Origin: a bacterium
GTDB lineage: Bacteria > Lernaellota > Lernaellaia > JACKCT01
Reading direction: 5' to 3'
Assembly: GCA_019912885.1 (NCBI GenBank)
Contig: JAIOHV010000121.1
Span: forward strand, 1 to 46,121
DNA length: 46,121 nt
Under the pieces are notes generated by a model. It was not told the DNA's origin. It worked only from the letters and a program-made list of their open reading frames with translations, and did no database searches. The translations under genes and the position numbers were made by a program. Shown here piece after piece: positions 28,173-45,146 of this stretch (the stretch's first letter is position 1; every line of letters begins with the position of its first letter).

Positions 28173-29177
28173 TCAGTTCGTGCAGAAGCCGGCGGTCGGA
28201 TTTTCCGTCCAGCCGTCATCCTCGCGATATTCGACGCGCGTGATCGCGACCGAGTCCGCGAACAGGGCTGGGATCGTCGCGGTTTCCTGTTCGCCGTCGA
28301 TATCGGCCGTGATCGTGTAGGCGCCCGGATCGGCGTTGACGCCGACAAAGAAGCTCATCGGGTCGCCTTCGCCGTCGAGCGCGGGGTTCGTGCCCTTGCC
28401 GTTTTCGTCGCCGACGCCGTTGCCGTCCGTGTCGCGCTCATCGGTCGGCAGCACGCCAAGGACGCTCTCCTTGAAGTAGTGCACTTCGGACACGGCCGGG
28501 CTGAACGTCACCTCGGCGCAACCGACCGGCTCGGTGTCTCCGGTTTCCGGAATGTAATAGACCGCGCCGGAGGCAAAACCCTTCGACGGATCGGGCGTGA
28601 TGCCGAGAAGGCCGGACACAAGCGTCACGACCGTGTTCGACACGCCGAGGAACGTATTGTCCGCGACGCCCGTCTGGAAGTGGTACTGATAGGTGTCCTT
28701 GTAGCCGTTCAGCGAAACCTTGATCGCCACGGCGCCCTTGGACTGCGGGATGCCCTCGAGAAGGACATAACCGTCGGAACCGGCCGTCGCGGAGATCGCC
28801 GGGTCGAAGGAAAGGCCGGTCGTGTCATCGACGGCCTCGACGGTCGCGCCGGCCAGCGGCGTGCCTTCCTTGAAGTCGGTCGCGAATCCGCTGATGGCGT
28901 CGGCGGCGATGTCGTCATCGCCCGTGTCGTCATCGGCGTCGTCATCGTCCGCGTCATCGTCGTCCGCGTCGTCGTCATCCGCGTCGTCATCATCCGCGTC
29001 GTCATCGTCCGCGTCGTCGTCGTCCGCGTCGTCGTCGCCCGCATCGTCGTCGGCCGCGTCGTCGTCGTCATCGTCGTCGTCATCGCCGCAGCTGCACGCC
29101 GGGGCGAGCGCACCCGCGGCAACCAGCGCAAGCGCCAGCATCACCATCCACAAAACTCGGGGAAGTTTCTGATTCAT
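28173..29177 (-). CDS. Asp-rich surface lipoprotein A with carboxypeptidase-regulatory-like domain
   Basis: The 334-aa protein starts at ATG 29177 behind AGGAGG. A lipoprotein signal ends in LAPAC, with Cys 28 the likely lipidated residue. Directly after it is a 58-codon tract of Asp interrupted by single Ala, Gly or Thr. Residues about 90-190 resemble a CarboxypepD_reg-like beta-sandwich (ISGFATDFKEGTPLAGATVE and VSLNGYKDTYQYHF). The C-terminal part has GCAEVTF and ends GFCTN, giving two Cys that may pair. It is a paralogue of the next upstream gene, with the same order and the same Cys positions. The acidic tether probably holds the domain away from the outer membrane, perhaps binding Ca2+; no enzymatic motif is seen. 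Confidence 0.8.
   Translation of the reverse strand: MNQKLPRVLWMVMLALALVAAGALAPACSCGDDDDDDDDDAADDDAGDDDADDDDADDDDADDDDADDDDADDDDADDDDADDDTGDDDIAADAISGFATDFKEGTPLAGATVEAVDDTTGLSFDPAISATAGSDGYVLLEGIPQSKGAVAIKVSLNGYKDTYQYHFQTGVADNTFLGVSNTVVTLVSGLLGITPDPSKGFASGAVYYIPETGDTEPVGCAEVTFSPAVSEVHYFKESVLGVLPTDERDTDGNGVGDENGKGTNPALDGEGDPMSFFVGVNADPGAYTITADIDGEQETATIPALFADSVAITRVEYREDDGWTENPTAGFCTN
28911..29084. repeat. in-frame minisatellite encoding the Asp tract of lipoprotein A
   Basis: 58 codons of near-pure GTC/ATC (Asp on the minus strand) are broken every fifth codon by an Ala codon. The result is a 15-bp unit, Ala-Asp-Asp-Asp-Asp, repeated about seven times in the middle. Copies differ at third positions. 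Length changes by whole codons would keep the frame. Confidence 0.85.
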
Positions 29178-29242
29178 TACGAGATCCTCCTGATTCCTTT
29201 CTTGATCGTCGCGCATGGCGCGAACATGTCACTTGGAATAAA

Positions 29243-29266
29243 CGGCCGCGCCTCGGGGCGCGGCCG
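29243..29266 (-). terminator. hairpin after lipoprotein gene B
   Basis: CGGCCGCGCC (29243-29252) pairs with GGCGCGGCCG (29257-29266), a 10-bp stem with a 4-nt loop. On the minus strand it is followed by TTTATT, a weak T tract. It separates the two paralogous lipoprotein genes. Confidence 0.65.
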
Positions 29267-29277
29267 GCAAACACGGG

Positions 29278-30177
<900 letters not shown>

Positions 30178-34231: not shown

Positions 34232-34417
34232 GTGGAATCGCACTACTGCATCGTGTCCATCGCGATCGCCGTCGTGGTGACGATCGTCGTGATCTCGCTG
34301 CTCATCCTTGTCCGCGACATCGCACGATTCGCCAACAAGAGGATCCGGGGCGAGTCGCGCACGAGCCGGTTGCCCGAGGCGGGACGCCCGGCGGAACGTG
34401 AGGAGGAGTCCCGATGA
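34232..34417 (+). CDS. 61-aa single-pass membrane microprotein at head of the polysaccharide locus
   Basis: The protein begins at GTG 34232 with AAAGGAAA upstream. One membrane helix covers residues 7-28 (CIVSIAIAVVVTIVVISLLI), followed by a basic, then mixed-charge cytoplasmic tail. Its stop TGA overlaps the ATG of the degenerate GGDEF gene by 4 nt, so the two are translated together. I know no named family for it. The position and tight coupling suggest a small subunit or assembly partner of the receptor or synthase, in the way BcsF or AcrZ-like microproteins attach to larger membrane complexes; this is inference. Confidence 0.75.
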   Translation: MESHYCIVSIAIAVVVTIVVISLLILVRDIARFANKRIRGESRTSRLPEAGRPAEREEESR

Positions 34418-35268
34418 ATCAGGAAGCGGTCGTGGAGCGCTCCACCGAGTATCGAGACAGCGTCGTCCTTTGCGCTCTCGGCCTCGTGTTCGGCGCCGCC
34501 TTCACCATGTATTTCAAGGTCCGCGGCCTGGACGCGTTCACGTTCATCATCTGCATGCCGATCGCGTTCCTGTCGATCGCGCGCGGGCTGAAATACGGCG
34601 CGCTGACCTCGATCGTCGGGGCGGCGCTCTACGGCTCGTTCGTCCTGTTCAACATCATCCAGGGCGCGGCGGCGGCGGGATTCATCCGCGAGAGCATCGT
34701 CAACATCGCGATCATCGTGTCCGTCGGCTTCATCCTCGGCACGATCTCCGAGACGATGCGCTTCCGCGACGCGAACGTCTTTCAAAACATCACGACCGTG
34801 GAAACCTTCGTTCCCGACGAGGACACGGGCCTTTACAACTTCAAGAGCTTCCGCTGGATGCTCGCCGGCGAAATGCGCCGCGTGCGCCGCTACAACACGC
34901 CGCTGTCGCTCGTGTTCCTGCGCGTGGAAAACCTCGACGAGTTCCAGGCGCGTTACGACTACACCGAAGAAGTCAATCTGTTCCGCGAACTGGGGCGCTT
35001 TTTCCGCGGCCTGATCCGCGACGCGGACTACATCGGCAAATATTCCGACAACGAGATCGGCATCATCCTGTCCGAAACGAATGCGAACGGCGTCAACATC
35101 GTGTTGCACCGCGTGGGGGAGAACCGCGACCGCGTCGTCGGGCACATCGGCGAATCCTGGGACAAGGTTTCGCTTCGGATGTCGGTGGCGTCGGCCAATT
35201 ACCCCAAGGACGCGAGTAATCTCGAGGAACTCGTGGACGTTCTCGACGCACGGTACCGGACGTTCTGA
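34414..35268 (+). CDS. membrane c-di-GMP receptor with degenerate GGDEF domain (YdaK/PssE-like)
   Basis: The 284-aa protein has about four membrane helices (residues 16-110) and a C-terminal GGDEF-fold domain (about 133-275). The active-site GGDEF is replaced by SDNEI (211-215), so cyclase activity is not expected. The inhibitory-site motif RxxD is intact as R202-D203-A204-D205 and stands exactly five residues before SDNEI, the spacing that binds c-di-GMP in true GGDEF proteins. Length and layout match B. subtilis YdaK. I infer a c-di-GMP sensor that switches on the glycosyltransferase encoded two genes on. It could instead be a non-binding scaffold. Confidence 0.83.
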   Translation: MNQEAVVERSTEYRDSVVLCALGLVFGAAFTMYFKVRGLDAFTFIICMPIAFLSIARGLKYGALTSIVGAALYGSFVLFNIIQGAAAAGFIRESIVNIAIIVSVGFILGTISETMRFRDANVFQNITTVETFVPDEDTGLYNFKSFRWMLAGEMRRVRRYNTPLSLVFLRVENLDEFQARYDYTEEVNLFRELGRFFRGLIRDADYIGKYSDNEIGIILSETNANGVNIVLHRVGENRDRVVGHIGESWDKVSLRMSVASANYPKDASNLEELVDVLDARYRTF

Positions 35269-35292
35269 CCCATGGACGGAGCCTGACCCCTC

Positions 35293-37374
35293 ATGCGCGG
35301 CGTGGTGATTCCGCTGGTGCTCCTCGCCCTGATCCTCGGCGTGCTTTACGCCGCATGGATGCAGTTCGGCCGCCACACCACGGGCGTTGGACCCGGCGGC
35401 GAACGCGTGCTCATCGTGTACGACGTGCCGTCGGGCCCCGACGACGCGCCGGCGGAGACCGTCAGCGCCCGGTCACTGGCGCAGCTCCTTTGCCATTTCG
35501 ATGTCGCGATCACACTCGTCTCGACGAAGGACTACGAAAAGGGCATGGCAAACGACGCGAGCTACGTTCTCTACGTCGGAACGAAAACGGGCCAGCCCCT
35601 GCCGAGCGATTTCATCGACGACGTGTTCGGCGCGACCGTTCCCGTGATGTGGATCGGCGCCAACCTCGAGCGCCTCGAGGCGCGTCACAGCATGGAAAAC
35701 TTCGGCTACAAGCTGGCCGACACCGAGGACCGCTTTCTCACAAACGATGTCGAATACAAGAATCATCGCTTCGCGAAGATCGACCTTTCGACGTTCTCCG
35801 TCCGCGTGACGCGCCCCTCGACCGTGCGTGTCCTCGCCAAGGCGCGTTATGTCGACAATCCGCTCAAGCCCGCGCAAGCGGGATTCGAGCCCACGCCGGG
35901 CACTCCCGGCGAGGCCGGCTCGGGCGGATACGGCGGCATGGCGCCGGGCGCAAGCGATGTCGCGCCGACCCCGACCGCGACCCCCGATCCCGAACCCGAC
36001 CTGATGGCCGCCGCGTCCACGCTGGCGCCCGTCGGGACACCGGCCGGCCTGCCGCCCGGCGCGCCTGCGCCGCCGAAGATCGAGGTGCCGTGGATCCTGC
36101 AGGGGAACAATCTGTGGTACGTCGCCAGCGATCCGCTGGCCTTCACCGTCGAGGGCGGCGCGTACGTGGCGTTCGCCGACGTGCTCTACGATTTCCTCGG
36201 CCAGCCGGCCGCGGGCGAACATCCCGCCTTCGTGCGCCTGGAAGACATTCACGCCAAGCGCGACGCGGCGACACTGCGCAAGGCGGCGGACCTGCTCTAT
36301 GAGCGCGGCGTGCCGTTTACGTTCACGATGACGCCCGTCTACAAGAACCCGGCGACCGACGAAACGATTTTCCTGACCGAAGCGCCTCAATTCATCGAGA
36401 CGATCCGCTATCTCATCGCCAGGGGCGGCGCCCCGATCCTCCACGGGTACACGCACCAGTTCAGCGGCGAGACGGCCGTCGATTTTGAGTTCTGGAATCC
36501 GTATTCCGGCGAGCCGATCGAAAGCGCGGACGAAACCTACGCCTCCGAGCGCGTCGAAAAGGCGCTCAACGAATGCTTCCTCGCGCGCATCTTTCCGCTG
36601 GCCTGGACGACGCCCCACTACGCCGCGGGGCAAACACACTACCGGGCGTTCGCCAACTACTTCACCACGGTGGTCGAGCGCCGCATGCCGGTGGAGCTTT
36701 TCGGTTCCGACCAGTTTTTCCCTTACCTCATCAAGCGCGACATGCACGGCCAGATCGTGATCCCCGAGACGCTTGGCTACGTGAATCCCGCCGCCGGGCG
36801 CGCGCCGGCGGATCTGTTGCGCGACGCCGACGCGATGAAGGTCGTGCGCGACGGTTGGGCGAGCTTTTTCTTTCACACGTTCCTCGACCTTGACCTGCTG
36901 GCCGAGATGGTCGACGGCCTGCGCGATCGCGGATTCAAATTCGTATCGCTCACCGAATTCAACAACAAGGTCACCACCGCCTCGCGCGTCGTCGCCTCCG
37001 GCGTCACGGAAGTGCGCCTGACGCTCGACGCGCAGTACAAGCACGAAATGACGCTCGCGGCGGACGGCGAGATGGTCGAGGAAAATTATTCGGTCGGAAC
37101 GATTACTGGCGACGTCGAAAAATACGTGTCGCTTCGTCCCGGGCAGATTCAGGTGGTCGAGGGGGTTTATCGCCGGCCCGCCTTTTCGCTCGCGAACCTC
37201 GGCATGTTCCGCCCGACGCTCTCGGGCGTGACGAGTCCCGTCGCGCTCGCGCTTCTTTTCATCGGACTGATGACGCTTGTCGTCTTCCTCGCGATCTGGG
37301 TTTTTCTCGTCACGCGCAAGACCATGCAGGACGTGCGCGGGTCGGTGACCGGCCCCACGCGGGAGGGGTTCTAG
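35293..37374 (+). CDS. doubly anchored DUF2334 polysaccharide-deacetylase-like protein (YdaL/Pss-like)
   Basis: The 693-aa protein has a membrane helix at each end (residues 4-23 and about 651-676), with the long middle part outside the inner membrane. Residues about 37-190 form a Rossmann-like domain (ERVLIVYDVPSGPDDAPAET), then comes a Pro/Ala/Thr linker (about 195-260, PTPTATPDPEPD), then the DUF2334 domain. Metal-binding residues of that carbohydrate-esterase-4 relative are visible as LEDIH (D318) and HGYTH (H384, H388). A beta-rich segment precedes the last helix. It probably deacetylates or otherwise handles the nascent polysaccharide. Its ATG follows the receptor gene by 24 nt, and the glycosyltransferase ATG directly abuts its TAG. 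Confidence 0.82.
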   Translation: MRGVVIPLVLLALILGVLYAAWMQFGRHTTGVGPGGERVLIVYDVPSGPDDAPAETVSARSLAQLLCHFDVAITLVSTKDYEKGMANDASYVLYVGTKTGQPLPSDFIDDVFGATVPVMWIGANLERLEARHSMENFGYKLADTEDRFLTNDVEYKNHRFAKIDLSTFSVRVTRPSTVRVLAKARYVDNPLKPAQAGFEPTPGTPGEAGSGGYGGMAPGASDVAPTPTATPDPEPDLMAAASTLAPVGTPAGLPPGAPAPPKIEVPWILQGNNLWYVASDPLAFTVEGGAYVAFADVLYDFLGQPAAGEHPAFVRLEDIHAKRDAATLRKAADLLYERGVPFTFTMTPVYKNPATDETIFLTEAPQFIETIRYLIARGGAPILHGYTHQFSGETAVDFEFWNPYSGEPIESADETYASERVEKALNECFLARIFPLAWTTPHYAAGQTHYRAFANYFTTVVERRMPVELFGSDQFFPYLIKRDMHGQIVIPETLGYVNPAAGRAPADLLRDADAMKVVRDGWASFFFHTFLDLDLLAEMVDGLRDRGFKFVSLTEFNNKVTTASRVVASGVTEVRLTLDAQYKHEMTLAADGEMVEENYSVGTITGDVEKYVSLRPGQIQVVEGVYRRPAFSLANLGMFRPTLSGVTSPVALALLFIGLMTLVVFLAIWVFLVTRKTMQDVRGSVTGPTREGF

Positions 37375-38655
37375 ATGCCGTATTCGAATGTCTACATCGA
37401 CCTGGCCTTTCTCTCGGCCGCGATCGGCATCTGGCTGTTCCTGCTTTTCAACGTCGTGCTGACGTTTTACGCCTTCCTGAACGGCCTTTCCGCGGAAAAG
37501 GAACGCAAGCGGATCAAGGACGAGCCTTTCCCGTTCCCGTTCGTGTCGATCCTCATCCCGGCGCATAACGAAGAGGTCGTCATCGACCGCACGGTGCAGG
37601 CGATGCTCGCGCTCAACTATCCGCGCGAGCGCCTGGAGATCATTGTCGTCAACGACGGAAGCTCCGACGCGACCGGCGAGATCGTGCAACGGCTGGCCGC
37701 GCGCCATCGCATCATCAAATACGTGGAAATCCCGCCGGGCGAAGGCGGCAAGGGCAAAAGCCACACGCTGAACGTCGGCCTGCAACACGCGGTCGGCGAT
37801 ATCATCGCCGTTTACGACGCCGACAACCGCCCCGAGCCGGACGCGCTGTTCTACCTCGTCGCGAATCTCGTCGAGGACCAGAAGCTCGCCGCGGTGCTCG
37901 GCAAGGTGCGCACGATCAATCGCGACCGCGGCTACCTGCCGCCGTTCATCAATCTGGAATTCATCGCGTTCCAGTGGCTGATGCAGGGCGGGCGCTACAA
38001 GCTGTTCAACCTCGCGACGCTGCCTGGCACGAACTACGTCATCTGGCGCAAGATTCTCGACAAGGCCGGGCGCTTCGACGAGGAGGCGATCGCCGAGGAC
38101 GCCGAGCTTTCGATCCGCATCTACGAATTCGGCTACCGCATCAAGTTCATTCCCTACTCCGTCACCTGGGAGCAGGAGCCGGAGGACATGCGCACCTTCA
38201 TTCGCCAGCGGACGCGCTGGGCGCAGGGGATGAAATACATCGTCCGCAAGTTCCTTCGCGTCGCGTTTCAGATGCGCAACCGGCGGATCATGTTCGACCT
38301 GTTTTACATGTTCAGCCTGTATTACGTCTTTTTCTTCGCCCTCATCCTGTCGGACATCATCGCGATCCTCGGTCTGCTCGGTGTGGTCAAGCTCGGCCTG
38401 ATCGGGCCGTTCACCTTCATCTGGTTCCTGGCGGCGATGCTGTTTTTCATGCAACAGCTCATCGCGATCAGCCTCGAGGAGGAGGAGTCGTTCAAGAACA
38501 TCGTCCTCTCGATGCTGATGTACGTCACGTATTGCCAGGTCTGGATCGTCGTGATCGTCCGCGCCTTCTGGATGGACATGCTCGCGGGACGAAAGAAAAC
38601 GAAATGGGACAAGACCGTGCGTTACCGCATTCGCGAAAAGGAAGCGGGCTCGTGA
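37375..38655 (+). CDS. processive family 2 glycosyltransferase, polysaccharide synthase (YdaM-like)
   Basis: The 426-aa membrane enzyme has a helix at residues 10-35, a GT-A catalytic domain and three or four C-terminal helices (about 305-395). Catalytic motifs are all present: VNDGSSD (D94), YDADNRPEP (D148, D150), the general base in AIAEDAEL (D242) and the processivity motif QRTRW (Q278, R281, W282). This is the signature of cellulose, hyaluronan and PNAG-type synthases. It lacks a PilZ domain, so regulation by c-di-GMP would have to come through the GGDEF-like protein. It starts without a gap after the DUF2334 gene. The polymer made is unknown. Confidence 0.92.
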   Translation: MPYSNVYIDLAFLSAAIGIWLFLLFNVVLTFYAFLNGLSAEKERKRIKDEPFPFPFVSILIPAHNEEVVIDRTVQAMLALNYPRERLEIIVVNDGSSDATGEIVQRLAARHRIIKYVEIPPGEGGKGKSHTLNVGLQHAVGDIIAVYDADNRPEPDALFYLVANLVEDQKLAAVLGKVRTINRDRGYLPPFINLEFIAFQWLMQGGRYKLFNLATLPGTNYVIWRKILDKAGRFDEEAIAEDAELSIRIYEFGYRIKFIPYSVTWEQEPEDMRTFIRQRTRWAQGMKYIVRKFLRVAFQMRNRRIMFDLFYMFSLYYVFFFALILSDIIAILGLLGVVKLGLIGPFTFIWFLAAMLFFMQQLIAISLEEEESFKNIVLSMLMYVTYCQVWIVVIVRAFWMDMLAGRKKTKWDKTVRYRIREKEAGS

Positions 38656-38670
38656 GCCCGGCGCATCGAC

Positions 38671-39786
38671 GTGCGTTCACGATCCCGGACACGACACGCG
38701 GCGCTTTGCGTGGCGCTGGCCCTTCTTGCCCTCGGCGGGGCCTGCGCGAGCACCGCGGGCGACACGGAAAAGGCGGAGCGGATCGCCCGCCGGTTTCTGG
38801 AGACGCGATTCATGACCGATGAGGGCGGCGTGTTCACATCCTCGACCGTGAGGCGATGGTTGTTCGTTCGCTACCACAATCTCGAGCAGATGCGCCTGTC
38901 CGGCATCCTTTCGGAGTCCGCCGGCCTGTTGATGCGCTACGCCGTGCTCGCGGGCGACCGCGCGATGTTCGATCGCCAGCTCGCGTTCGTGAAGCGCCGC
39001 CTCACCGGGCAGTTCGGCCTGTACTTCTGGAAAATCGGGCACGACGGCGAATTGACCGCCGATTCCTCGGCGAGCGTGGACGATCTGCGCATCATCGGCG
39101 CCTGCCTGGACGCGGCCGAACGATTCGGCGAACCCGCCTATCGGGCGTACGCGCTCGAAATCGCCGCCGCGCTGCGCGAGCACGAGGTGATCGACGATCA
39201 CCTGCGCGATTTCGTGAACTGGCGCGACTGGGGCGAGCCCTCCGTCGCGCGTTCGGTGCAGCTTTCGTATCTCGACCTGCCGACGATCGCGCGCGTCGCG
39301 GATCTGGCTCCGGCGTTTCGCCCGGTCGCCGAGTCGGCCGCGCGCCTTCTGGCCGGCGGGCGCCTGGCGACGGGGCTGTATTACGAGCAATACGACTTCG
39401 CGCGCGCCCGGTACACGGGCACGAAATCCAACACGATCAATCAGCTCTACTGCGGGCTTTTCGATCGCGGCCACGAGGCGTTCGCGGACTTCCTCGCGGG
39501 CAAGCTCGCCGAGGACGGCGTGATCTACGCGGAGTACGACGCCGCGAGCGGCGAGGCGACGAAGTTCTACGAATCGACGAGCGTGTACGCGCTCGCGACG
39601 CGATTTTTTCTGGCCGCCGGCCGCGAGGACGAGGCCGAAACGACCCTGCGGCGGATGCTCGACTTCCAGGGGCGGGCGCCGCTTTCGCCGATGTACGGCG
39701 CGTTCGCCGATGACGAGGTTTATTCGTTCGACAACCTGGAGGCGCTGTTGACGCTGCGCGCGTGGAACGCGCGGGCGGCGAATTGA
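38671..39786 (+). CDS. GH8-like periplasmic glycoside hydrolase (YdaJ/PssZ-like)
   Basis: The 371-aa protein has an N-terminal export signal (ALCVALALLALGGACASTAG), possibly a lipoprotein, and an alpha/alpha barrel. LSESAGLLMRYAVLAGDRAM matches the GH8 block 'SEGxGYGMxxAxxxxD', placing the general acid at E82. DSSASVDDLRIIGACLDAAE (D137, D138) matches the second block with its substrate-binding Asp. GH8 members include BcsZ endoglucanase and the hydrolases of the yda and pss loci, which trim or release the polymer. The motif is altered (SESAGLL rather than SEGQGYG), so activity may differ. The GTG at 38671 is chosen to include the signal; the ribosome site is weak. Confidence 0.76.
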   Translation: MRSRSRTRHAALCVALALLALGGACASTAGDTEKAERIARRFLETRFMTDEGGVFTSSTVRRWLFVRYHNLEQMRLSGILSESAGLLMRYAVLAGDRAMFDRQLAFVKRRLTGQFGLYFWKIGHDGELTADSSASVDDLRIIGACLDAAERFGEPAYRAYALEIAAALREHEVIDDHLRDFVNWRDWGEPSVARSVQLSYLDLPTIARVADLAPAFRPVAESAARLLAGGRLATGLYYEQYDFARARYTGTKSNTINQLYCGLFDRGHEAFADFLAGKLAEDGVIYAEYDAASGEATKFYESTSVYALATRFFLAAGREDEAETTLRRMLDFQGRAPLSPMYGAFADDEVYSFDNLEALLTLRAWNARAAN

Positions 39787-39857
39787 GTCGGAGGTTGGCG
39801 CGGCGTTTTCGGACGCCGCGCATGCAGGCGCAAGCCGATTTTGAGGAGTGGATCGCC

Positions 39858-42800
39858 ATGAGGTGCAAGACGACCGGCATCCTTGTCGCGATCCTGCTGT
39901 CGCTTGGCGCGGGGCCCGTTTTCGCGGGTTCTTACGAGGACGGCCTTGCCTTTTTCGGCAAGGACCAGTTCGGCCATGCGATCGAGGCCTTTCAAAAGGC
40001 GCTCGAGCAGGATCCCGAGAATCTCGACGCCAAACGCAAGCTTGGCGAGAGCTACTACGCTCTCGGCAAGAATTCGGAGGCGGCGAAAATCTTCCGCGAG
40101 GTCCTGGAGCAGGACCCGAACGACGGCGTCACGCGCCTGCATCTGGCGCAGGTGTATCAGTGGCAGAACAACGTCGACGAAGCCGTCGCCGAATACCGGA
40201 AACTCCTCGAACGCGAGCCCGAAAACCTCACCGCCCTGCGCGAGCTCGCCGAGGTCTATTCCTGGAACGCTTCCACCTACGATCAGGCAATCGAAACCGC
40301 CCGCCGGCTCCTTGCGATCGAGCCGCAGGACAAGAAAGGGCTTCTCATCCTGGCCCGCGCGCTCTCCTGGAAAGGCGCGCACGACGAATCCGCCCAGAAC
40401 TACGAAAAGCTTCTTGCGATCGATACGAACAACGACACCGCGCGCATGGAGTATGCGTACGCGCTCATGTACGCCAAGCGCTACGACTCCGCGGTCGAGC
40501 AGTTCAATCTGTTGACCCTGAAGCCCAAGCATCGCGACAAGGCGCTATCGGGCCTCGCCGAGGCTTACACTTACAGCCAGCGCTACGCCGACGCCGTGCT
40601 CACCTACCGCATGCTTATCGATCGCCACGGCGATCACCCGGCCACGTGGCGCGGTCTCGGCGACGCGCTTGCCGCGCAAAAACGCACGCGCGAGGCGATC
40701 GAGGCCTACAAGAAGGCGCTCGAGCTTGAGCCCGACAATCTGGAGACGAAATTCATCCTCGCGAACGTGTACGCTTGGGAAGAAGCCACCTACCCCGAGG
40801 CGATCAGCGCGCTGAAGGAGATCCTCGAAAAGGACGCGAATCACATCGAGGCGCGCAAGCTCCTGTCGCACATTTACACGATGTCCAATAATTTCCGCGA
40901 GGCGGAGGACCAGTTCCGCGCGATCCTCGCCGCCCAGCCCGAAAACCTGGAAGCTCGCATGGACTACGCGCGCACGCTGCGCGAGGCCGGGCGCTACGAC
41001 ACCGCGCTCGCGCAAGTGACCGAGGTGCTCGAGCGCGACGCGCAAAATATCGAGGCCAAACTCCTTCGAGCCGACCTTCTCGCGCTTTCGGGCGATTTCG
41101 ACGCGGCCATCGAAAACTTTGATGCGATCCTGTCGGCCGAACCCAAGAACCTCGACGCGCAGATCGGCCTTGCCGGCGTTTACAACCTGCGGGCGCTCGC
41201 CGAGAAAAAGCGTGGCGAGGAACTCGAAGCCGCCATCCAGACGCAGTGGATCGGCCTGTTCGACCGCATTCGCTGGCTTTGGAGCCGCTACCAGTTGAAC
41301 GTCGCCTACAACAAGGCGATCGGCACGCTCGAGCAGGCGGCGCTGGACCACCCCGGCAGTTCGCGCCCGCATGTTCGCCGCGCGGAGATCTACGCCGACC
41401 ACGGCGAAACGGAGTCCGCGATCCGCGCGTACAACGACGCGATCCAGGCGGACCCGAACGACGTGACGCCGTATCTCGGCCTGTCGGTCATGTACGGAAA
41501 AATGGGCAACCACGAAAAGAGCCTGGACGCCATCCGGCGCGCCGCCGCGATCAACCCGGAAAGCATGGAGGTTCTCGGCACGCTGTCGGACGTGTACGCG
41601 TATCAGCAGGACACGGTCAAGGCGATCGAGACGCTCGAAAAGGCGCTGCAGCTTCGCTTCTCCGACCTGGACCTGCACCGCAAGCTGGCGAACGTCTACG
41701 CGCAGAACAATCGCTATTACGAAAAGGGCATCCAGGAGGCGCGCTTCATCCTCTCGCAGGATCCGGAAGACGACGAGACGCGCCTTCTGCTCGCGCGCCT
41801 TCTGACCTGGACCGACCAATACGGCCGCGCCGTCGACGAATACCGCACGCTCGTCGCCAAGCGTCCCGACGACGAGGATCTCTACGTCGAGTTGACCAAA
41901 ACGCGCATCTACGCCGGCGAGGGACCACAGGTCATCACCGAGCTGAACCAGAAGCTCGACGCCGACCCGAGCCGCACGGAGCTGCGTCTGGCGCTCGCGC
42001 AGGCGTATTACATGGAACAGCAGTACGATCGCGCCGAGGCCATCTACAAGGACATCATCAAGAACGATCCCAAACACGCCAACGCACACCTGGGGCTTGG
42101 CACCGTCTATCGCCTCACGGGGCAATACGACAAGGCGAAGCTCGAATACCGCGAGGTGCTCGCGCTCAATCCCGAATCGGGCGAGGCGTATTACGGCCTT
42201 GGCGTCATCGACCGCAAGAACGGCGATTACCAGCGCGCGGTCGTGATGCAGAAAAAGGTGCTCGAAAACGACCCGACGAACATCAACGCGTTCACCGAGC
42301 TGTCCTACGACCACTACCTGCTCTCCCGACGCTACATCGCGGTGACCGGCGAATATCATCGCGCCTGGTGGCTGCTGACGAACTCGTGGGGGGATCTCTA
42401 CGGCGTGTACGGCGAATATCCGGCGAACATCGAGCAGATGCGCCGCATCCTCGAGGAAGACCCCTGCAATACGCAGGTCCGCTTCCTGCTCGCGGAGGAA
42501 TTCGCCGCTCACAACCGCAACAAGGAAGCGGTCATCGAATATCGCAAGGTGCTCGAGTGCGACCCGAACCACATCGGCGCCCGCCTCGCGCTCGCCGACA
42601 TCTTCAGCTACGACGCGCACACCTACGGCGACGCGATTGCCGAGGCCATCGCCATCCTGCGCGTCGAGCCGGAAAACTACGACGTGCGCCTGCGCCTGGC
42701 GAGGCTCTATTCGTGGACCGGCCGATTCGGCGCCGCGTTGCAGCAATATCAATGGCTGCTCGAACGCCGGCCGAGCAACGTCGATCTGCGTTTCGAGTAC

Positions 42801-45146
42801 GCGCAAACGCTGTCGTACGCCAAGCAATACGACGCCGCGATCCAGCAGCTCGAAGTCATCCTGCAGCAGGATCCGGCGCGCGACGAGGCGCGCATGCTGC
42901 TGGCGCGGCTGTTCTCCTATAACAACCGCATCGAGGATGCGATCCGCGAATACGAAGTCGTCCTGCAGCGCGATCCCTACAACTACGAGGCCTCGTTCGC
43001 GCTCGCCTCGCTTTACTCCTGGGATCGGCGCTACTACGGGCGCGCGATCGATCTGTATCGCAAGCTCTATACGCGCGATCCGCAAAACACCGAGGCGCGC
43101 CTGGAGATGGGGCGCCTGCTGCTGGAACGCGGCGAATTCGCCGAGGCGGAAAAAGCGTATCGCGACGCGATCGAGCTTGAGCCGGACAACGTCGATGCCC
43201 ACATCGCGCTTGGCCGCGTTTACATGGGAATGAAGAAAAACGGCGAGGCCGAGGCCGAGTTCCTGACCGCGCTCGAATACGAGCCGAAGAACGTCGACGC
43301 GCACTTCTATCTGGCGAGCCTGCTTTCGATGAACCCCGACCGCTACGCGGACGCGATCGAGCACGCGGAGTTCGTCGTCGAGGCCGAACCGGACAACGAG
43401 GACGTGCGTCTGTTGTTGGCGCGGCTTTATTCCTACGAGACGCAATACGCCAAGGCCGCGGAGCAGCTGCAATACCTGGTCGAGAAGAATCCCGGCGACG
43501 CCGAGCTCAAACTCGAACTCGCGCGCGCCTACAACTACGGCGAAGATTACGATTCCGCGATCGCGGTGTATCAGGAGCTCGCCGAGGCCGATCCGGAAAA
43601 CACGACCGTGCGCCTGGAACTCGGTCAGGTGTTCCTCGCGATCGGTCAATACGAGGACGCGATCGTGAACCTCGAGTTCGTCGTCGAGAACGATCCCTGG
43701 AATATCGAGGGCCGGCGCGCGCTGGCCCGGTCGTACAAAAACTCGGGCCGCACCGAGGACGCGATCGATCAGTACAAGCGCATCATGGTCGTCGATCCGA
43801 AGGATCAGGAGGCCAAGGAATTCCTCGCGCTTTACTCCATCGAATACGTCAACGGCGCGTTCCTCGACAGCTATTTCTCAAGCGGGGCCAAGGGGGTGCC
43901 CGGCGGTCCACCCCTTGCGGCCTCGCTCGAAATGAGCGAGGCGGAACAGAAGTATCGGGCGCAGCTTGCGACGGAGCTTTACAACCGCCAGCTCTACCAA
44001 AGGGCGCGGCGCGAGTTCGAAAAGCTCGTCGAGGCCGATCCGGACAACGTCTACTACCGCATCGTGCTCGGCAACATCTATCGCGCGTCCGGCATGTGGC
44101 GATCCGCCGCGACGCAATACAACATCGCCCTCGCGCTCGATCCTAACAACGCCGAAGCCAAGGAAGGTCTTCTCCTTGTGTCCTACGAAAGCGCCCCGAC
44201 GCTGGACGTTTTCGCAGGCTACTCGGAGGCCATCCGCTTCAATGACCGCTTCGTGTACGCGATGGGCGGCACGGCGTTCACGTATCGCTTCTGGGACGGC
44301 TGGTCCGCGTTCGCCAAGATCCAGGCGGGCCGTTTCTTCCAGGACGGCGAAACATCCCAAAGCCACGTGTCGCCGAGCGTCGGCATCACCGCCGGGCTGT
44401 TCGGCGATCTCGCCGCGCGCGCGTCGTACACCTACACGATTTACGACAAGACCGTCCCCGCGACGCACAACTGGGAATTCGGCCTCGGCTACAACCTGCT
44501 CGACTTCGCGCTGATCGATGTCTTCTACCATCGCCGCGACATGCGGCAGACGATCCTGTCGATGCGCGAGGAGATCGACACCGACACGCTCGGCGTCGCG
44601 CTCACGCTCGTGTCCATCACCGGCGAGGACTGGGACCGCTTCCGCATCCTCGGCGAATACAACTGGCGCGAAAACAGCGAGTCCGCCGGCGAGCGCGTGG
44701 ATATCGATTCGCAGACGAGCAACCTCGTTCGCGCGGGCCTCGGATACACCTTCCCGGGCGCGTTTGCCGTGCCCGACGCCTCGCTGCTCGTGTCGTACAT
44801 GTTCACGTACATCGACCACGAAACGCGCGCGCCGTACGAACAGGAAGTCTACTGGTCGCCGCTCGACTTCCAGAGCCACGCGATTCCGATCGGCTGGTTC
44901 CACCAGCTCACGCCGGCGTTCGCCTACAACCTCGGCCTCGCGCCGTCGCTGAATATCGAAGAAGGCGATGAGGGCTTCGGCCAGAGCTACTTCGGCGGCT
45001 TCGACTGGCGCATCAACTACAACAACCGCCTCACCTTCGACGCGGACCTCGGCCTCGGCCAGGCGCAGGGCGATCAGTATTACTCCTATCGCCTCTTCCT
45101 GAATTACCGCTACACGTTCGGGGATTTTTCCGGGCTCGAGGAATAA
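39858..45146 (+). CDS. giant TPR/beta-barrel outer-membrane polysaccharide exporter (BcsC/PgaA/PelB-like)
   Basis: The 1762-aa protein starts at ATG 39858 with GAGGAG upstream and has a signal peptide (GILVAILLSLGAGPVFA). Residues about 25-1440 are roughly forty tetratricopeptide repeats, with 'A...Y...L..DPEN..A' periodicity and one non-TPR insert near 815-870. Residues about 1450-1762 form an outer-membrane beta-barrel with YWSPLDFQSHAIPIGW, close to the BcsC motif YYSPQxYxSLxVPVxW, and a terminal RYTFGDFSGLEE. In cellulose, PNAG and Pel systems such proteins carry the polymer across the periplasm and outer membrane. It is far longer than BcsC (about 1150 residues). It is the last gene of the locus. 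Confidence 0.9.
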   Translation: MRCKTTGILVAILLSLGAGPVFAGSYEDGLAFFGKDQFGHAIEAFQKALEQDPENLDAKRKLGESYYALGKNSEAAKIFREVLEQDPNDGVTRLHLAQVYQWQNNVDEAVAEYRKLLEREPENLTALRELAEVYSWNASTYDQAIETARRLLAIEPQDKKGLLILARALSWKGAHDESAQNYEKLLAIDTNNDTARMEYAYALMYAKRYDSAVEQFNLLTLKPKHRDKALSGLAEAYTYSQRYADAVLTYRMLIDRHGDHPATWRGLGDALAAQKRTREAIEAYKKALELEPDNLETKFILANVYAWEEATYPEAISALKEILEKDANHIEARKLLSHIYTMSNNFREAEDQFRAILAAQPENLEARMDYARTLREAGRYDTALAQVTEVLERDAQNIEAKLLRADLLALSGDFDAAIENFDAILSAEPKNLDAQIGLAGVYNLRALAEKKRGEELEAAIQTQWIGLFDRIRWLWSRYQLNVAYNKAIGTLEQAALDHPGSSRPHVRRAEIYADHGETESAIRAYNDAIQADPNDVTPYLGLSVMYGKMGNHEKSLDAIRRAAAINPESMEVLGTLSDVYAYQQDTVKAIETLEKALQLRFSDLDLHRKLANVYAQNNRYYEKGIQEARFILSQDPEDDETRLLLARLLTWTDQYGRAVDEYRTLVAKRPDDEDLYVELTKTRIYAGEGPQVITELNQKLDADPSRTELRLALAQAYYMEQQYDRAEAIYKDIIKNDPKHANAHLGLGTVYRLTGQYDKAKLEYREVLALNPESGEAYYGLGVIDRKNGDYQRAVVMQKKVLENDPTNINAFTELSYDHYLLSRRYIAVTGEYHRAWWLLTNSWGDLYGVYGEYPANIEQMRRILEEDPCNTQVRFLLAEEFAAHNRNKEAVIEYRKVLECDPNHIGARLALADIFSYDAHTYGDAIAEAIAILRVEPENYDVRLRLARLYSWTGRFGAALQQYQWLLERRPSNVDLRFEYAQTLSYAKQYDAAIQQLEVILQQDPARDEARMLLARLFSYNNRIEDAIREYEVVLQRDPYNYEASFALASLYSWDRRYYGRAIDLYRKLYTRDPQNTEARLEMGRLLLERGEFAEAEKAYRDAIELEPDNVDAHIALGRVYMGMKKNGEAEAEFLTALEYEPKNVDAHFYLASLLSMNPDRYADAIEHAEFVVEAEPDNEDVRLLLARLYSYETQYAKAAEQLQYLVEKNPGDAELKLELARAYNYGEDYDSAIAVYQELAEADPENTTVRLELGQVFLAIGQYEDAIVNLEFVVENDPWNIEGRRALARSYKNSGRTEDAIDQYKRIMVVDPKDQEAKEFLALYSIEYVNGAFLDSYFSSGAKGVPGGPPLAASLEMSEAEQKYRAQLATELYNRQLYQRARREFEKLVEADPDNVYYRIVLGNIYRASGMWRSAATQYNIALALDPNNAEAKEGLLLVSYESAPTLDVFAGYSEAIRFNDRFVYAMGGTAFTYRFWDGWSAFAKIQAGRFFQDGETSQSHVSPSVGITAGLFGDLAARASYTYTIYDKTVPATHNWEFGLGYNLLDFALIDVFYHRRDMRQTILSMREEIDTDTLGVALTLVSITGEDWDRFRILGEYNWRENSESAGERVDIDSQTSNLVRAGLGYTFPGAFAVPDASLLVSYMFTYIDHETRAPYEQEVYWSPLDFQSHAIPIGWFHQLTPAFAYNLGLAPSLNIEEGDEGFGQSYFGGFDWRINYNNRLTFDADLGLGQAQGDQYYSYRLFLNYRYTFGDFSGLEE

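Follow-up and report, generated by a model that had tools for sequence, protein, structure and literature searches.

A yda/pss-related exopolysaccharide synthase operon lacking BcsB and carrying a candidate deacetylase and a candidate TPR exporter in a predicted two-membrane bacterium

The closest described relatives of the operon analysed here are the Listeria pssA-E genes with PssZ, the B. subtilis ydaJKLMN operon and their clostridial relatives, all of which have a GT2 synthase of the same family, a degenerate GGDEF protein with an I-site, a DUF2334 protein and a GH126 hydrolase. Listeria PssE, whose arrangement is the same as that of the GGDEF protein described below, is a proven I-site receptor (Kd for c-di-GMP near 0.8 uM) and is required for exopolysaccharide (PMC4125290); YdaK has the same role in B. 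subtilis (PMC7064775). The Listeria Pss polymer is beta-1,4-ManNAc with galactose (PMC6307706), and a partly deacetylated, ManNAc-rich polymer has been proposed for a C. difficile relative encoded by a GT2-BcsB-GH113-WecB-deacetylase operon (PMC7710045). At the Firmicutes loci, YdaN/PssD, a protein of the BcsB family (PF03170), comes after the GT2, and Firmicutes relatives have genes for GH126, GGDEF, DUF2334, GT2 and YdaN together, in 37 of the 80 loci that we surveyed, these being the best 80 of one scan.

The operon also has features in common with other polysaccharide systems. E. coli pgaABCD resembles it in its TPR-barrel porin and CE4 deacetylase, for both of which the operon has candidates, and in its PilZ-less GT2 and small membrane subunit, but the GT2 is of a different family, there is neither a GGDEF receptor nor a GH126 enzyme, and PgaD is unrelated to our microprotein (a Pfam search for PgaD gave no match in the operon). 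The bcs system (BcsA, BcsB, BcsC, BcsZ) likewise combines a processive GT2 with a TPR-barrel protein, which has a local motif in common with the operon's candidate, whereas our operon lacks PilZ, BcsB and GH8 and has a predicted deacetylase. In Pel, a degenerate GGDEF receptor (PelD) acts in trans alongside a TPR-barrel protein (PelB) and a deacetylase, as is predicted for the operon; the operon's synthase, however, is a GT2 and not the GT4 PelF, its GGDEF protein differs in architecture, and no PelG, PelE or PelC was seen. The C. difficile operon has a GT2 of the same family and a link to an epimerase, but it is Gram-positive, contains BcsB, has GH113 instead of GH126 and has no TPR protein. 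The predicted pairing of a deacetylase with a TPR porin is that of Pga and Pel, while for synthase, receptor and hydrolase the parallel is yda/pss. Compared with yda/pss itself, the operon is without YdaN/PssD, keeps DUF2334 motifs that are degenerate in Listeria PssB, and adds a candidate TPR-barrel protein and a microprotein in a two-membrane cell.

The operon lies in a window of 46,121 nucleotides (the whole stretch of DNA that was analysed) from a genome of 4.8 Mb in 230 contigs that is 99% complete. Its six genes (Table 1) are separated by gaps of -4, 24, 0, 15 and about 70 bases. A preliminary description of the window had proposed six plus-strand genes related to ydaJKLMN/pss, for a membrane microprotein, an I-site-bearing degenerate GGDEF protein, a DUF2334 protein beside a processive GT2, a GH8-like hydrolase and a BcsC-type TPR barrel. 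All of these open reading frames are present at the places and on the strand it gave, and Pfam bears out the domain calls (GGDEF, 3e-12; DUF2334, 3e-47; GT2, 1e-30; many TPRs), with a GH8 match (2e-6) to which we return below. The identical gene set and order, including the adjacency of DUF2334 and GT2, recur in five of the seven genomes sampled from the phylum, our own included, spread over two families; the other copies are G001/L012, G002/L016, G005/L014 and G006/L013, and the remaining two genomes (G003, G004) have distant GT2s only. Because the order is shared with four other genomes, the association of these genes goes beyond chance. Identity of the GGDEF protein among the copies falls as low as 45%. 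The microprotein is seen in three of the four other copies, the fourth (L016, on contig C23 of G002) containing many frameshifts that are probably sequencing or assembly errors. The flanks are glyQS in our own family (f1) and a divergent UDP-GlcNAc 2-epimerase gene in f3, and since they differ in this way we take the six genes to be the conserved unit. Genes for TamB and for TonB-dependent receptors elsewhere in the genome show that the cell has two membranes (diderm). In the window, no RNA family, riboswitches included, reached the Rfam gathering score. Elsewhere in the window, on the minus strand (28173-30177), two adjacent lipoprotein-like genes encode highly acidic Asp runs and carboxypeptidase-regulatory-like domains.

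Table 1. Features of the operon and its surroundings (positions in the window)
Feature	Position	Strand	Evidence
Six-gene operon	34232-45146	+	tightly spaced, one strand
61-aa one-TM microprotein, GTG start	34232..34417	+	homologues L012, L013, L014; single TM; coding codon-position pattern
YdaK/PssE-like predicted receptor: N-terminal membrane module and degenerate GGDEF (SDNEI), I-site R202xxD205	34414..35268	+	Pfam GGDEF; hydrophobic N-terminus
DUF2334, predicted CE4-type polysaccharide deacetylase, N- and C-terminal membrane anchors	35293..37374	+	Pfam, model, motifs
Processive GT2 synthase, motifs DADN, AEDAE, QRTRW	37375..38655	+	Pfam, motifs, trees
GH126 glycosidase (PssZ/CPF_2247 family), N-terminal hydrophobic segment	38671..39786	+	PDB matches, marker residues
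1762-aa exporter candidate: signal peptide, ~1400-aa TPR superhelix, 320-aa barrel-like C-terminus	39858..45146	+	TPR matches, signal peptide
Barrel-like C-terminal domain of TPR protein	44181-45143	+	sub-threshold BCSC_C, BcsC motif
glyQ/glyS	upstream of operon		named from sequence

Kinship to yda/pss is clearest in the synthase. The GT2 is 43% identical to Listeria PssC over 97% of its length, and 43-45% identical, near full length, to Listeria and Paenibacillus homologues, whereas identity to PgaC (29%) and BcsA is 28-29% over two thirds of the length. In a cleaned tree, which left out odd long rows from Sulfitobacter, E. fergusonii and Natrinema, the phylum clade is sister to the Firmicutes YdaM/PssC proteins (SH-aLRT 97), and PgaC and BcsA sit on long outer branches. 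Judged by sequence, the GT2 thus belongs to the YdaM/PssC family and not with PgaC or BcsA, with a rooting that is not fully resolved: an AU test did not reject joining the phylum GT2s to PgaC, with the root on their branch (p 0.42), because the test mainly asks where the root falls among long branches. The two outcomes that would have told against the preliminary description, a GT2 grouping with BcsA or PgaC and a loss of synteny in related genomes, were thus not borne out, and its reading is partly supported and largely right once corrected. No PilZ domain was found in the GT2 by Pfam, as first described. The operon could alternatively have arrived by convergence at a Pga-like system for poly-beta-1,6-GlcNAc, in which GT2, CE4 protein and TPR porin correspond to PgaC, PgaB and PgaA and the GGDEF protein is an add-on regulator. 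The nearest curated GT2 model is indeed PgaC_IcaA, and PgaABCD has the three matching functions as well as a small membrane subunit in PgaD. However, the GT2 scores 164 bits with that model against a cut-off of 422, its similarity to PgaC is the low and partial one given above, PgaC falls outside the yda/pss group in the tree (with the AU result as stated), GH126 and the I-site GGDEF protein tie the operon to pss, relatives have a UDP-GlcNAc 2-epimerase at the locus, and hhalign gave no match between the barrel-like domain of the TPR protein and the PgaA barrel. We consider a Pga-like origin unlikely.

The clearest break with yda/pss is the BcsB-family subunit. The preliminary description saw no recognisable BcsB in the window, and the absence extends to whole genomes: a PF03170 search gave zero matches genome-wide in all seven phylum genomes, with positive controls in B. 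subtilis and E. coli. For this reason we do not file the locus as a plain yda/pss member. The same absence bears on the possibility that the operon is akin to cellulose synthesis, with a BcsC homologue as its TPR-barrel protein and a glucan as the product of its GT2. Sub-threshold BCSC_C matches, a BcsC motif and the distant similarity of the GT2 to BcsA are in keeping with this. But besides the missing BcsB, the GT2 has no PilZ, the hydrolase is a GH126 enzyme and not the GH8 BcsZ, and plain cellulose is no substrate for a CE4 N-deacetylase; this explanation appears very improbable.

How might such a synthase be controlled? In the GGDEF protein the I-site is retained and the GGDEF motif lost, as had been proposed. 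The RxxD of the I-site is common to four phylum members and Firmicutes homologues in our alignment. The family alignment has 54 rows, one of them a canonical cyclase; of the other 53 proteins, all degenerate, 50 keep the RxxD and none keeps the GGDEF motif. The operon protein is thus predicted to bind c-di-GMP at its I-site. The genome has eight further GGDEF domains, seven of them strong, so a source of c-di-GMP is likely. Degenerate GGDEF proteins and GT2s also occur as minimal two-gene modules without DUF2334, GH126 or BcsB matches (L114:7311-9385, L115:8379-10383).

Upstream of the GGDEF gene, the microprotein is a real coding gene, because the changes among homologues are mostly in third codon positions (18/17/35), dN/dS is about 0.35-0.5, and the four-base overlap with the GGDEF gene is constant in all four intact operon copies. 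The homologues have in common the motif LLILxRDI/V. The single transmembrane segment agrees with the membrane protein first described, which is probably a small accessory subunit of the synthase.

The GH8-like identity that was initially suggested for the hydrolase did not survive. Its PDB matches are 3ren (3e-28) and 6r2m (2e-16), which we take to be CPF_2247 and PssZ, respectively. Both CPF_2247 and PssZ are GH126 enzymes, a family marked by Glu84, Asp136, Arg139, Tyr194 and Tyr307 in CPF_2247 numbering and already known to include proteins from 'Deltaproteobacteria' (PMC7479077). When aligned to 3ren, the corresponding residues E82, D137, R140, Y200 and Y306 are invariant in our alignment of phylum and Firmicutes proteins. 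Against these structures and marker residues the Pfam GH8 match is weak, and we rejected GH8 in favour of GH126.

The DUF2334 protein was modelled with AlphaFold at a pLDDT of 75, and the model matches CE4 esterases/deacetylases in the PDB (7fbw, ArnD, PdaC, PgdA), the best being 7fbw with a TM score of 0.74 normalised by target. RLED, HGYTHQ, TPHYA and FFFHTFLD are intact, the Asp and HxxxH metal-site motifs among them, and because these CE4 motifs are preserved the protein is a candidate active deacetylase. More broadly, RxED, HGxTHQ, TPHY and FFxHxFLD are intact in the phylum and, among Firmicutes, in several Clostridia and a few Bacilli. They are degenerate in most Bacilli and lost in Listeria PssB (L130:5491-6987), in lactobacilli and in the Paenibacillus and Cohnella copies at pss-type loci; these motif-less Gram-positive copies look like pseudoenzymes. 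The label 'deacetylase' given to Listeria PssB (PMC6307706) is unsupported by the motifs of that protein. Our genome encodes three more DUF2334 proteins (C215/L017, C43/L018). Two of their genes are tandem neighbours, and none of the three adjoins a GT2 gene of the operon's family.

What polymer might be made? UDP-GlcNAc 2-epimerase forms UDP-ManNAc. In L013 and L014 its gene and the operon are head-to-head neighbours. Of 32 non-Firmicutes loci 11 contain it, of which 10 are independent, since L013 and L019, the latter from the public record 'Deltaproteobacteria bacterium fen_1099', belong to one genome; of 56 Firmicutes loci 4 contain it. We take L092 to be the C. difficile operon discussed above. 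Our own genome has one copy, which in keeping with the rest of family f1 is not adjacent to the operon. Given this placing of the epimerase gene beside two copies of the operon and close to many loci of related type, and the ManNAc polymers of Listeria and (as proposed) of the C. difficile relative, our best guess is a partly deacetylated ManNAc polymer, for which both sugar and linkage are inferred.

The TPR protein most likely starts at ATG 39858, which gives it a signal peptide. Of the BcsC-type TPR barrel in the preliminary description, the signal peptide and the TPRs stand, and the barrel assignment is marginal. The aromatic-rich C-terminus has sub-threshold BCSC_C and OMP matches (best BCSC_C E value 0.017, with matches in three of five homologues), and its YWSPxxFxSHAIPIGW stretch aligns locally with E. 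coli BcsC YYSPQEYLSFAIPVMW (E 5e-4). Of the 386 genomes searched for this domain, the five that carry the operon have it and the other 381 do not, and a search of a plasmid collection gave no match to it. On these weak matches, it is likely to be an outer-membrane barrel. Alternatively, the TPR protein could be a scaffold or assembly factor for a periplasmic or surface-anchored polymer, with chains exiting by some other way. The structural model of the C-terminus, built from two sequences, has a pLDDT of 36, our home-made transmembrane-strand scan does not rise clearly above shuffles and so does not discriminate, and BcsC and PgaA have much smaller TPR regions. Yet the order of signal peptide, TPRs and an aromatic-rich 320-aa C-terminus is like that of BcsC, the BcsC motif is present, and the C-terminus is confined to genomes that have the operon. 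We therefore regard a scaffold as improbable and a porin as the better reading.

Taken together, we think it likely that the operon encodes a yda/pss-type, synthase-dependent system for exopolysaccharide in a two-membrane cell, working without BcsB and using a CE4 protein and a TPR porin for modification and export. The computation establishes the gene set, its kinship, the intact motifs, the synteny and the lack of BcsB, and the steps that follow are predictions. The inactive GGDEF protein would bind c-di-GMP at its I-site and thereby switch on the inner-membrane GT2. This synthase, with UDP-ManNAc as its most likely substrate, would build and extrude a chain of hexosamines with no BcsB-type subunit. 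On the periplasmic face of the membrane, the anchored DUF2334/CE4 protein would take off some of the acetyl groups, and the GH126 enzyme may trim or clear chains. Finally, the giant TPR protein could collect the now cationic polymer, which would leave through its C-terminal outer-membrane barrel.

Whether this amounts to the distinct Gram-negative class first suggested is a further matter. The diderm context, the absence of BcsB and the added TPR protein speak for it, while its range so far is one small phylum, in five of seven genomes. A separate diderm class, defined by a receptor acting in trans, a GT2 without PilZ, the lack of BcsB, an active CE4 enzyme and a giant TPR-barrel protein, and making partly deacetylated poly-ManNAc, is a tentative proposal to which we give slightly less than even chances. 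A search of openly accessible literature turned up no earlier account of yda/pss machinery paired with a TPR exporter in a diderm. The identical arrangement may nevertheless exist elsewhere, because our survey beyond the phylum was a sample (386 genomes and the best 80 loci). If the proposal is true, it would show how one synthase family is refitted between one- and two-membrane cells, and the need for BcsB in extrusion and for deacetylation in TPR-barrel export would become testable. Poly-ManNAc-type matrices and trans-acting I-site receptors would also reach beyond the Firmicutes; the proven example of a ManNAc polymer made by yda/pss machinery is Gram-positive, and the operon suggests an undescribed export route for an aminosugar polymer.

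The GT2 subfamily is rare, with 11 matches at 1e-100 across the 386 sampled genomes. In a scan of named genomes its kin lie in Firmicutes yda/pss loci, Ignavibacteria, Bacteroidota, Acidobacteriota and others. A two-gene module of this GT2 and a giant DUF2334 protein (1300-1680 aa), without GGDEF or GH126, occurs in Ignavibacteria, Bacteroidota, Acidobacteriota and Desulfobacteraceae (L020-L039, L049, L056, L066) and often adjoins a UDP-GlcNAc 2-epimerase gene. On an archaeal Natrinema plasmid (L131), DUF2334 lies directly upstream of a related GT2. A GT2 42% identical to ours is found on NZ_CP064203.1, a record of 3.97 Mb that is entered as a plasmid of 'Acinetobacter baumannii' and may be mislabelled.
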